Shown in pieces: positions 47,946 to 51,541 of a stretch of DNA of 64,000 nucleotides. The position numbers and the translations under genes are program-made. The notes below the pieces were generated by a model. That model was not told the origin of the DNA. It did not search any database and saw only the letters and a program-made list of their open reading frames with translations. This DNA comes from Saccharibacter sp. 17.LH.SD (lineage in GTDB: Bacteria > Pseudomonadota > Alphaproteobacteria > Acetobacterales > Acetobacteraceae), in the NCBI RefSeq assembly GCF_009834805.1, contig NZ_WVHO01000009.1, positions 560,501-624,500 of the forward strand. Reading direction: 5' to 3'. The first letter of the stretch is position 1. The number at the start of each line of letters is the position of its first letter.

Positions 47946-49802
47946 ATGCAATACGATATTCTTCTCGGTGTAGTGACAACATTTGGTGCGGGGATGCTCG
48001 CGCAATGGGTGGCATGGCGCTTTAAGCTGCCAGCGATTGTTCTTTTATTCGCTTTAGGTCTGCTTTTTGGTCCCGTCATGGGATGGCTCCATCCTTCAGA
48101 AGCTCTGGGGGGAGCATTCCGCCCGATGGTATCAATGCTGGTGGCATTGATCGTGTTTGAAGGTGGGATGGCCCTTGATATCCGTCAGCTTCGTGAGGCA
48201 GGCGAAGGTGTTGCGCGCCTCACGATGCTTGCTTTGCCGATCAATTGGATTCTTGGGGCTCTCGCGGCACATTATATTGCCCACCTTGAATGGGGAATTT
48301 CGTTTTTATTTGGTGCGATTGTTGTCGTAACTGGCCCTACAGTTGTGTTGCCTTTGTTGCGAAGTGCAAAATTGAAGCCACGGGTGGCGGCATTCTTGCG
48401 GTGGGAAGCAATTGTTAATGACCCGTTGGGAGCCATTCTTGCCGCAGTTGTGATGCAGGTCTTGATTCTGCATGTTGATTTTCAAAATGGGCTCTTTTTT
48501 ACAAAAACACTGCCAAACATCTTGATTGCGGGAGCCATTTCGATCGCAGCAGGTATTTTACCAGCTTATTTGATGCGGTTTCTCTTCACCCGGGATCTGA
48601 TGCCGGAGCTTTTGAAAGCGCCCGTATTGCTGTCGATGGCATTGGTGATTTTTGAGCTTTGCACGCTTGAGATAGAAGGAGCAGGCCTCATTGCCGTAAC
48701 GGTGTTTGGGATGGCATTAACCAACCTGCACATTCCGGGTATGAACGAGTTGCGGCGTATCAAAGAGTCTCTTGTTGTTCTTATGGTCTCTGTGCTGTTT
48801 ATTCTATTAACAGCTGATCTGCATCGTGATGTTTTAGCACGGTTGTCTGTGCCGATCGTTTTATTGACGCTTGCCGTTATGTTTGTTGTGCGTCCATTGG
48901 GTATTTTCCTCTCCACACTCGGTGGGACGGCCACGACGTGGCAGGAGCGTCTTTTTGTTGGGTGGATTGCCCCACGTGGGATTGTGGCTGCGGCCGTGGC
49001 CGGGGCTGCGGGTATTCGCCTGAGTGAGGCGGGCTATGCATCAGCAGACCTTGTCATGCCTGCTGTGTTTGCTGTCATTGCGGCGACGATGCTGTGCCAT
49101 GGTTTTTCCTTAGTGCCGCTTGCACGTGCTTTAAAACTGACCTTGGTCAATGAATCAGCCATAGCTATTTTGGGAAGTAGTACGTGGTCGGCGAATTTGG
49201 CGCTGTGTTTGCGTAAAGCAAAGGTGCCGGTGCTGCTTATTGATAATAATGCACGTGACCTTATGAAGGCCGCCCGTGATGGTGTTCCCGTGCTCAAAGC
49301 GGAGTTGCTTTCTGACCATGGGCAGGAATCTTTGGAAGAACGTCCTGTTGACTATCTTATCGCAACCACGGGTGATGGGATTTATAATGGGATGGTGTGC
49401 GGGCATTTAGCCCCACATATGGGCCGTCAGCGTGTGTTTCAAATTAGCCCTGGCGTGGCACGTCTTGATTTGTATCGTGGGCTTTCAAGGGATGCCCGCG
49501 GAAGAGTTTTGGGCGAGCCATCGTGGAGCTATTCATTTTTTGACACACTCTTTAGTCGGGGATGGCGCTTTGTTAGCCGTTCTATGACAGAGGAAGATGT
49601 TCAGAATTTTAAGCAGGATGAAAACCGTCTTGATATTCTTTTAGTCAGGCGAGGAACCGGCATTCTCATTCGTTCTGCTGAAGATTCGATCCATATTACG
49701 CCAATGGCAGGAGATATCATGGTGTCTATGGTGCAAGAAGTGGAAGCGCCTGTGGAGAAAAAGGAGACGGTAAGCCTCCCTTCCGAAGCATTGTCGGGCT
49801 AG
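47946..49802 (+). CDS. NhaP-type cation:proton antiporter with C-terminal TrkA-N domain
   Basis: A 618-residue CPA1-type monovalent cation/H+ antiporter. About twelve membrane segments fill residues 1-400, with GAIVVVTGPTVVLPLLR and the ion-binding Asn-Asp in EAIVNDPLGAILA. The C-terminal cytosolic part (about 405-520) looks like a TrkA-N/RCK nucleotide-binding fold (AIAILGSSTWSANLALCLRKAKVPVLLIDNN), which gates K+ systems by nucleotide; the GxGxxG is degenerate. It would export Na+ or K+ in exchange for protons, useful for pH and ion homeostasis in acid environments. GGGGGA is about 13 bases from ATG, rather far. Confidence 0.9.
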   Translation: MQYDILLGVVTTFGAGMLAQWVAWRFKLPAIVLLFALGLLFGPVMGWLHPSEALGGAFRPMVSMLVALIVFEGGMALDIRQLREAGEGVARLTMLALPINWILGALAAHYIAHLEWGISFLFGAIVVVTGPTVVLPLLRSAKLKPRVAAFLRWEAIVNDPLGAILAAVVMQVLILHVDFQNGLFFTKTLPNILIAGAISIAAGILPAYLMRFLFTRDLMPELLKAPVLLSMALVIFELCTLEIEGAGLIAVTVFGMALTNLHIPGMNELRRIKESLVVLMVSVLFILLTADLHRDVLARLSVPIVLLTLAVMFVVRPLGIFLSTLGGTATTWQERLFVGWIAPRGIVAAAVAGAAGIRLSEAGYASADLVMPAVFAVIAATMLCHGFSLVPLARALKLTLVNESAIAILGSSTWSANLALCLRKAKVPVLLIDNNARDLMKAARDGVPVLKAELLSDHGQESLEERPVDYLIATTGDGIYNGMVCGHLAPHMGRQRVFQISPGVARLDLYRGLSRDARGRVLGEPSWSYSFFDTLFSRGWRFVSRSMTEEDVQNFKQDENRLDILLVRRGTGILIRSAEDSIHITPMAGDIMVSMVQEVEAPVEKKETVSLPSEALSG

Positions 49803-49890
49803 GTTCAAAAAAGTTCCACATCGTGTATGACTTGTAGGCTTTTGATAAAGAGATAAAGTCATACTGCGATGTGTGAGGCCAGGGGGAGAT

Positions 49891-50589
49891 ATGAGTAGTC
49901 GTCATTTTGTATTTATTGTGAATAGTGACGATACATTAAGGCTCCAACTGAAGGAGTATATCTGTCAGGAAGAGAGCCTAGAAGTCTTTAGTGTTGCGAC
50001 CTGTGAAGAAGTGAGACAAATTTTTGCAGATGGTGAGCAGCGCGTTGATCTCCTTTTGATGGCGGATACGCTTTCCGATGGAGATGGTATTGAATTCTGT
50101 CAGGAGTTACGCCTGATTGGTGTAAAAATTCCCATCGTTATGATGACGGATTCATATGACGAAGAACATATCGTCAAAGGGTTGGATTCCGGTGCGAATG
50201 ACTATGTTATTAAACCCTTTCATTTCAAAGAATTACTGGCACGTTTGAGAGCTCAATTGCGTGCTTTTGATACAAGTGAAAATGTTGTTTTTGATATAGG
50301 TCCCTACATCTTTAGGCCATCATTCAAGCAATTAATTGACCCAAACAAAGGGTACCGTATTCATTTGACAGAGAAAGAAACGGCGATCCTGAAATATTTA
50401 TCCCGAGCGGGGCATCAGCCTGTTAGCCGTCAAATATTATTGGATAAAGTGTGGGGCTATAATGCGACTGTGACAACCCACACATTAGAGACCCATATTT
50501 ATCGGCTGCGCCAGAAAATAGAGCCGGATGCGACACGGACGTCGTTACTCATGACAGAAGGCGGAGGTTATCGCCTAAAAATGGATTAA
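49891..50589 (+). CDS. Orphan OmpR-family response regulator with degenerate receiver
   Basis: A 232-residue two-domain regulator. Receiver (1-118): the beta-1 acidic pair is N11-S12 instead of Asp/Glu-Asp, and the phospho-acceptor position holds A58 (LLLMADTLSDGDG; Asp is shifted to 59). The downstream T86 and K108 (DYVIKPF) are kept. The C-terminal winged helix (about 130-230) is intact, with VSRQILLDKVWGY and THTLETHIYRLRQKI. It probably binds DNA without Asp phosphorylation, like other atypical regulators; this is inference. No histidine kinase is adjacent. The frame opens at 49873, but GGGGGAGAT selects ATG 49891. It follows the antiporter by about 90 bases and ends at a terminator. Confidence 0.88.
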   Translation: MSSRHFVFIVNSDDTLRLQLKEYICQEESLEVFSVATCEEVRQIFADGEQRVDLLLMADTLSDGDGIEFCQELRLIGVKIPIVMMTDSYDEEHIVKGLDSGANDYVIKPFHFKELLARLRAQLRAFDTSENVVFDIGPYIFRPSFKQLIDPNKGYRIHLTEKETAILKYLSRAGHQPVSRQILLDKVWGYNATVTTHTLETHIYRLRQKIEPDATRTSLLMTEGGGYRLKMD

Positions 50590-50651: not shown

Positions 50652-51446
50652 TTAAAGTTCAAGATCGAGAAGCACAGGAACATGGTCGGAAGGACTGTTC
50701 CAATCGCGTATATCCTTCAGCACATCAATGGATTTGAGGGCAGGTAAAAGGTCAGGCGTGAGCCAGACATGGTCCAGTCTACGTCCTCTATTAGATTTTT
50801 TCCAATCCCGATTGCGGTAAGACCACCATGTATAGAGCTTTTCAGTCGCTGGGATGACATGACGCATCGCATCTTCAAAACCGGTTTCGAGCCATTTTTG
50901 TAAGCGTTCGGTCTCTGGTGGTGTGTGGCTGACAATTTTGAGAAGCTGGCGGTGACTCCAAACGTCATTTTCAAGGGGAGCGATATTGAGGTCACCAACA
51001 AGAATACTGCGCGTTGGAGGGTTTTTCTGAAACCAGTGTGTGACTTCTTCAATAAAAGAAAGCTTATGCGCGAATTTGTCATTCACATGAGGGTCAGGGA
51101 TATCGCCTCCAGCGGGAACATAGAAATTGTGAAGCTGAAGCGGTTTTTGATGTGTTTCAACAAACGCAGCAATATGGCGGCAATCTTCTTTATGACACCA
51201 AGTTGGCGTTGTTTCGACGAGCTCTAGTGGCAAGCGTGAGAGGATGGTTACCCCATTATAGCTTTTCATGCCGCGATAAAGCTGATGGGTATAGCCAAGC
51301 TCTTTGAGGGCTTCGAAGGGAAAGAGAGGGTCGGGAACCTTCGTTTCCTGCAAACAGAGTATGTCAGGGCTGTATTCATCCACAAGACGCTGGACAAGAG
51401 GAAGCCGCAAGCGAAGAGAATTAATATTCCATGTAAGAAGACGCAT
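50652..51446 (-). CDS. xth: Exodeoxyribonuclease III
   Basis: AP endonuclease/3' exonuclease of base-excision repair, 264 residues. Visible: MRLLTWNINSLRLRL, ILCLQETKVPD (metal Glu), YRGMKSYNGVTILSR, NFYVPAGGD (catalytic Tyr), LVGDLNIAPLENDVW (Asp/Asn), TWWSYR...NRGRRLDHVWLTP and the final SDHVPVLLDL (His). The frame runs to 51512, but MRLLTW is the canonical N-terminus. It is divergent from the dipeptidase gene. Confidence 0.95.
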   Translation of the reverse strand: MRLLTWNINSLRLRLPLVQRLVDEYSPDILCLQETKVPDPLFPFEALKELGYTHQLYRGMKSYNGVTILSRLPLELVETTPTWCHKEDCRHIAAFVETHQKPLQLHNFYVPAGGDIPDPHVNDKFAHKLSFIEEVTHWFQKNPPTRSILVGDLNIAPLENDVWSHRQLLKIVSHTPPETERLQKWLETGFEDAMRHVIPATEKLYTWWSYRNRDWKKSNRGRRLDHVWLTPDLLPALKSIDVLKDIRDWNSPSDHVPVLLDLEL

Positions 51447-51541
51447 GGGCTTCTGATGCCCTGAATCTCTTTTTTGATGCAAGGGGGTTGTGAGATTGTA
51501 TGAGGGGCGCAATGTAGAAAAGACACAGTGTGAGGAATTTT

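Follow-up and report, generated by a model that had tools for sequence, protein, structure and literature searches.

A CenR orthologue of Saccharibacter sp. 17.LH.SD with a lost phosphorylation site and a probable phosphate-independent mode of action

Several alphaproteobacteria cannot do without CenR, and workers in the field have asked how this essential function survives without its kinase. The locus of Saccharibacter sp. 17.LH.SD described here lies in the window, by which we mean the whole stretch of 64,000 nucleotides analysed (contig NZ_WVHO01000009.1, positions 560,501 to 624,500 of the forward strand), and all coordinates below without a locus prefix are positions in that stretch. The gene (49,891–50,589, forward strand) encodes an OmpR/PhoB-type response regulator of 232 amino acids with an apparent pseudo-receiver. 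Its ATG start codon is immediately 3' of the sequence GGGGGAG; an alternative GTG start of the same frame, 18 bases upstream, figures in the mechanical list of open reading frames. The receiver and winged-helix domains of the protein both score above their Pfam cut-offs.

Three of the five key residues of the receiver site are lost in this protein. Within the receiver domain (residues 7–124; 49,909–50,262, forward strand, as are the codons that follow), N11 and S12 (AAT and AGT, 49,921–49,926) replace the Mg-binding acidic pair and A58 (GCG, 50,062–50,064) replaces the phospho-acceptor aspartate; T86 (ACG) and K108 (AAA, 50,212–50,214), the latter a lysine in 162 of 162 sequences, are retained. 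The adjacent D13 and D59 are encoded by GAC and GAT. To turn an Asp codon into that of S12 or of A58 takes two base changes or more, so a single sequencing slip is no explanation. Two further substitutions accompany these losses. At D+4, S62 (50,074–50,076) occupies a position that is Pro in 159 of the 161 other orthologues, and at T+1, D87 (50,146–50,151 together with the T86 codon) stands where the others have Gly (150 of 161) or Ala (8 of 161). Both P62S and G87D fit the pseudo-receiver trends described in PMC12632262, and they are additional to the marks listed in the original prediction. That prediction was of an OmpR-type regulator carrying N11, S12 and A58 with T86, K108 and the DNA-binding domain intact, and its register is borne out both by the alignment with 161 orthologues, in which the window protein has no register-shifting insertion, and by an AlphaFold model (mean pLDDT 79.3, pTM 0.58, from a shallow alignment of 5 rows). 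The model has five strands as in a receiver (β1, 6–10; β3, 54–58; β4, 82–86; β5, 104–107), and residue 58 ends β3. With all three acidic residues of the site lost, and with P62S and G87D in addition, the protein would not be phosphorylatable by the usual chemistry.

Phosphorylation might persist on a shifted residue, for example D59, which adjoins A58, or D63, which is retained in 161 of the 162 sequences. The unshifted register, the placing of residue 58 at the end of β3, the loss of both Mg-binding residues and the presence of Asp at T+1, where nearly all other orthologues have Gly or Ala, make this very improbable. Even less credence is given to redox or ligand control in place of phosphorylation: the receiver does contain three cysteines (C25, C38 and C70), but C70 is common in many orthologues that are phosphorylatable.

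Alignment identifies the window gene as an orthologue of cenR, whose product regulates the cell envelope in alphaproteobacteria. This identity had been overlooked when the gene was assigned, correctly, to the OmpR family. When the canonical relative L018 was compared with the plasmid collection, a Cereibacter azotoformans protein was matched at 60.4% identity and S. meliloti CenR at 56.6%. The S. meliloti anchor (P0002) has 228 codons (684 bp), D55, L95 (CTC), K105 (AAG), E159 (GAA) and, in its GGAA ribosome site, a G at position -10; these features match those printed for SMc03820, that is CenR, in PMC9561847. The Cereibacter anchor (P0003) carries D11–13, D51 and D56, the residues given for Rb. 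sphaeroides CenR in PMC9275681. Both anchors align over their full length with the window protein when each genome is represented by a single orthologue. No CenR model was present among the best 25 of the 72 NCBIfam 20.0 matches of the window protein, the best of these being MtrA, far below its cut-off, and a single-sequence search of the genome contigs with the window protein returned distant matches only.

The gene neighbourhood has one element in common with the well-studied loci. The xth gene (50,652–51,461, reverse strand), encoding exodeoxyribonuclease III, lies directly beside cenR in the window, as it does in Cereibacter, and in S. meliloti one gene separates the two. On the other side of cenR lies an antiporter gene of the Na+/H+ exchanger type, weakly matched by TrkA_N (47,946–49,802, forward strand). 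The order guaB, rsmB, antiporter, cenR, xth, M19 peptidase, uvrC is retained in close relatives, in some with gaps, whereas the Sinorhizobium and Cereibacter loci are flanked by an L,D-transpeptidase gene and xth and lack the antiporter. The antiporter had been taken as a hint of ion or pH control. As a functional clue it was abandoned, the gene pair being a trait of close relatives that the Sinorhizobium and Cereibacter loci lack, and CenR in relatives being tied to the cell envelope.

The likeness to CenR of Rhodobacter/Cereibacter, Sinorhizobium and Caulobacter extends to full-length orthology and a near-identical recognition region, and the kinase gene is not adjacent in Rb. sphaeroides either. 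The difference lies in the phosphotransfer chemistry, since those organisms have the acidic residues, the phospho-Asp and CenK, and the window species has neither the site nor a recognisable CenK. The protein is thus a CenR orthologue that nevertheless stands outside the CenK-CenR phosphotransfer systems. The absence of CenK bears on the CenK-CenR system and not on orthology to CenR, since Brucella CenR keeps its name although that organism has no evident CenK.

How general is the loss of the phosphosite? Of the 249 family genomes sampled, 160 contributed one CenR orthologue each, and with the two named anchors this gave 162 sequences, 161 besides that of the window; the second orthologue search covered 80 of 103 lower-ranked genomes, and the genus is represented by the window species and two genus-mates. 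Asp58 is retained in 158 of the 161 other orthologues, the exceptions being Asn in G126 and Glu in G155 and G198, and Ala is found in none of them. These counts indicate a loss specific to this lineage. The original prediction had left to an orthologue alignment whether the alanine is fixed, and regarded Asp58 in orthologues as evidence against itself; the aspartate is indeed present in nearly all of them, which does not rescue phosphorylation of the window protein and makes the loss lineage-specific instead of fixed in the family. Both genus-mates keep Asp58 and have Asp-Asn as the acidic pair (Asn12). Other altered pairs are Gly-Asp in G031 and Asp-His in both G155 and G198, and Ala replaces T86 in G202.

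Some of these relatives deserve separate mention. In G198 and G155 (L210 and L211), which belong to another genus, CenR combines the Glu phosphosite with the His in the acidic pair, apparently an independent change of phosphomimetic type. G126 (L230, L318), where CenR Asp58 has become Asn, has a broken antiporter gene, a broken rsmB and broken hybrid kinases, and looks like a genome in active decay.

The distribution of changes along the window protein is uneven. When only columns with a conservation of at least 95% among the other orthologues are counted, 11 of 41 are changed in the receiver against 1 of 40 in the winged-helix DNA-binding domain (residues 156–229, 50,356–50,577, forward strand; residues 154–230 counted; Fisher p 0.003). 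Within the receiver, changes affect 9 of 22 such columns in residues 1–89 and 2 of 19 in the α4-β5-α5 region (90–124; p 0.04). At a conservation of at least 98% the values are 5 of 13, 1 of 14 and, for the DNA-binding domain, 0 of 32, and at this cut-off the contrast within the receiver loses significance (p 0.08). By these columns, decay is concentrated in the phosphorylation half. Identity to the family consensus is 54 of 118 residues in the receiver and 57 of 77 in the DNA-binding domain, reaching 26 of 29 in residues 183–211. The positions K96, D99, D104, E114, R118 and R120, which we take to be the OmpR-family dimer contacts, are kept or conservatively replaced. The receiver fold, the α4-β5-α5 dimer face and the DNA-binding domain have all been preserved. 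A point against the pseudo-receiver reading comes from one orthologue (L206), whose receiver is slightly more altered (12 of 41 columns) and carries T86A, and which has kept Asp58.

Rates of change were compared on a tree of 13 genomes with branches derived from five neighbour proteins. Relative to the neighbour-protein branch, the receiver branch is 4.2-fold longer in this species, 11.9-fold on the genus stem and 3.3-fold on the stem of the genus-mates, against 1.5 for the whole tree. The value on the genus stem places the start of the receiver speed-up in the ancestor of the genus. The DNA-binding domain branch is at 1.04-fold against 0.56 for the whole tree, about twice its usual relative rate, which is a point on the opposite side.

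A rival explanation is plain gene decay, in which a genome undergoing reduction has let the receiver lose its function and is in the course of losing the regulator altogether. The genome is small (2.10 Mb), fewer than half of the receiver residues accord with the consensus, and a search at E <= 1e-45 recovered no CenR from four small-genome relatives (G029, G116, G066 and G209), from which it follows that CenR can be lost in this family. Against decay, the open reading frame is full-length, the columns at the stricter cut-off are untouched in the DNA-binding domain and changed only once in the α4-β5-α5 region, and the genus-mates, on a branch of their own, retain a full-length cenR too. On balance decay of the whole gene is an unlikely explanation.

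The prediction that no kinase lies near cenR holds and extends genome-wide. The genome yields 11 HATPase_c matches, namely six kinases, GyrB, ParE, MutL, HtpG and one weak match (L053) that is below the Pfam cut-off and has no NCBIfam model at E <= 1e-20; all six kinases adjoin their own response regulators, none of which is CenR. The search for CenK used the S. meliloti protein as query, identified by its length and the four codons printed for SMc01716. Across 249 family genomes, 49 gave a match at E <= 2e-37, the next best being 2.3e-28. CenK was not found in the window's genome (best match E 2.7e-10) nor in 200 of the 249 sampled relatives. In the subset examined, 111 of 119 CenK-negative genomes have a complete CenR site and the other 8 an altered one, against altered sites in 0 of the 41 genomes with CenK (p 0.11, relatedness ignored). 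Loss of CenK as the sole trigger is not supported, because CenK is missing from most of the sampled relatives that keep Asp58; it permits the site change and does not explain it.

A tandem pair of hybrid histidine kinases (L313:4995–8957, and parts of L314–L332) was also observed in the family. It is kept in 17 of 20 loci, in 14 of these 17 beside hslU; it is broken in G126, whose CenR has Asn58, reduced to one weak match in G122, where CenR is intact, and absent from the stretch of G217 examined. No such pair was found among the kinases of G000, G101, G158 and G066, nor among those of the window's genus. As a hidden CenR kinase the pair was set aside as suggestive but weak, the loci having been picked by kinase-profile match, the events being few and G126 having other broken genes.

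The reading that we favour is that CenR of this species has probably been turned into a phosphorylation-independent regulator, an unphosphorylated dimer on DNA that gives a constant basal output, the level of which depends on the amount of the protein. The protein would dimerise via α4-β5-α5 without phosphorylation and would still bind CenR sites. Basal output would be permanently on, and would be tuned through the quantity of CenR produced or retained (transcription, the leader hairpin or turnover) and not by a kinase. Control by protein level or dimer state, one of the options named in the original prediction, is the best remaining reading, since the receiver seems unphosphorylatable, no kinase is adjacent and CenK was not found. 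The proposal of a phosphate-independent dimer set by amount draws on results for CenR in Rb. sphaeroides, S. meliloti, B. ovis and Caulobacter. Rb. sphaeroides cannot live without cenR, survives deletion of cenK and remains viable with cenR(D56A), although activity is then reduced. In S. meliloti a cenK deletion was obtained and a cenR deletion was not (PMC9561847). For B. ovis, in which no CenK is evident, the D55A and D55E alleles each restore growth on SDS and carbenicillin; D55A complements only partially in infected cells (PMC10746171). Loss of the site would be survivable, given that CenK is dispensable in some relatives and that Asp-to-Ala CenR retains part or all of its function. Finally, overexpression of cenR in Caulobacter mimics overactivation of the pathway, so that the amount of CenR alone can drive output.

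Some observations argue in the other direction. In Rb. sphaeroides, D56A resembles the cenK deletion in that expression of CenR targets is lowered, so that a plain Ala form is a weak activator. Moreover, the K+2 residue of the window protein is Phe, which reportedly favours the inactive form. By analogy with these alleles, either the other receiver changes would compensate for Ala58 or the species would live with a low CenR output.

B. ovis CenR also offers a different model, in which the receiver acts as a partner domain. There the regulator is an orphan that works with EssR-EssS, and it resembles the window protein in lacking an evident CenK and in an Asp that is dispensable on stress plates (PMC10746171). 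CenR and EssR of B. ovis bind via their receivers, D55A does not weaken the binding, and CenR speeds transfer from EssS to EssR. By heterodimerising with another OmpR-type regulator, the window CenR could likewise receive its signal from the kinase of its partner, and its retained α4-β5-α5 face is compatible with this. However, D55 and EssR are kept in B. ovis, whereas in the window species the Asp is lost and no clear EssR-like partner was recognised: the unassigned OmpR-type pairs L004 and L005, judged by family models, match best with copper/heavy-metal regulator models and not with OmpR. Such a partnership is doubtful, at a likelihood hardly above that of gene decay.

If the amount of a phosphate-independent CenR dimer sets its output, a handle on that amount is possibly present in the leader. 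Between the stop codon of the antiporter gene and the start codon of cenR a strong hairpin is predicted (49,815–49,876, forward strand; 62 bases, -27.3 kcal/mol, z -4.8), and its z is the second-lowest among 159 cenR leaders, with start codons picked by a simple rule. It was not found in the cenR leaders of the two genus-mates. It is a feature and no proven switch. Neither TGA-N8-TGA nor TCAC-N5-7-GTGA occurs within the 160 bases before the window cenR or the cenR of seven close relatives, and autoregulation of cenR, with no CenR-type site in the eight leaders scanned, is unsupported.

Events of this kind have precedents in other families. CosR of thermotolerant Campylobacter and HP1043 of Helicobacter pylori are OmpR-type regulators for which one lineage lacks CosS and the phospho-Asp and its sister lineage has both (PMC3938529); the DNA-binding domain is conserved and the receiver variable, as in the present case. 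The differences are that they belong to another family, that the Asp is replaced there by Asn or Ser, and that C. jejuni CosR has been shown to be essential whereas the window cenR is known from sequence. CosR is the closest precedent, and what happened to CenR in the window species is, by this comparison, an event of that kind in a second family. Receiver site residues are likewise missing from ChxR of Chlamydia and from other atypical regulators or pseudo-receivers, and phosphate-free dimerisation and DNA binding would be expected of them (PMC12632262 for pseudo-receivers). Their changes are fixed in their families, whereas CenR is canonical at position 58 in nearly all of its other orthologues. 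No report of a natural Asp-less CenR was found by title and abstract in the open-licence literature on CenR and the cell envelope or on CenR and Acetobacter.

The other unpaired regulator of the genome is CtrA (L006:1108–1839, reverse strand; best NCBIfam match 285 bits, next 163). Inspected by eye, the regulators of this genome have the phospho-Asp in 6 of 6 paired cases and in 0 of 2 unpaired ones, CenR and CtrA (p 0.036, calculated by hand). Among 54 relatives including this genome (among L249–L312), the CtrA phosphosite is Glu in 31, Asp in 22 and Ala in 1; the count excludes G032 (L254), in which ctrA occupies two frames, through either a genuine frameshift or a fault of assembly. With a profile built from five sequences, matches of CckA grade (E <= 1e-116, a threshold set after viewing the list) were obtained in 14 of the 22 genomes with Asp-CtrA against 0 of the 32 others; the remaining 8 genomes with Asp-CtrA have no match of this grade, and some of them are incomplete assemblies. 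By title or abstract, nothing was found in the open-licence literature on a CtrA Glu phosphosite or CckA loss in acetic acid bacteria. The change in CtrA being older and clade-wide, the losses in CenR and CtrA are two separate events. We tentatively raise the possibility that in these alphaproteobacteria of small genome size both conserved master regulators have been freed from their kinases, CtrA early and across the clade, by Asp-to-Glu replacement and CckA loss, and CenR later and in this genus only. If so, envelope and cell-cycle control would run on the amount of regulator and not on phosphorelays, and a clade-wide phosphomimetic CtrA without a phosphorelay would be notable.

The window CenR is the natural counterpart of the Asp-to-Ala laboratory allele made in relatives. 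With the whole site lost and the dimer face and DNA-binding domain kept, it provides a natural test of which CenR functions require phosphate. Together, the window species, its genus-mates, which have lost one acidic residue, and the relatives with a complete site form a graded series from receiver to pseudo-receiver.
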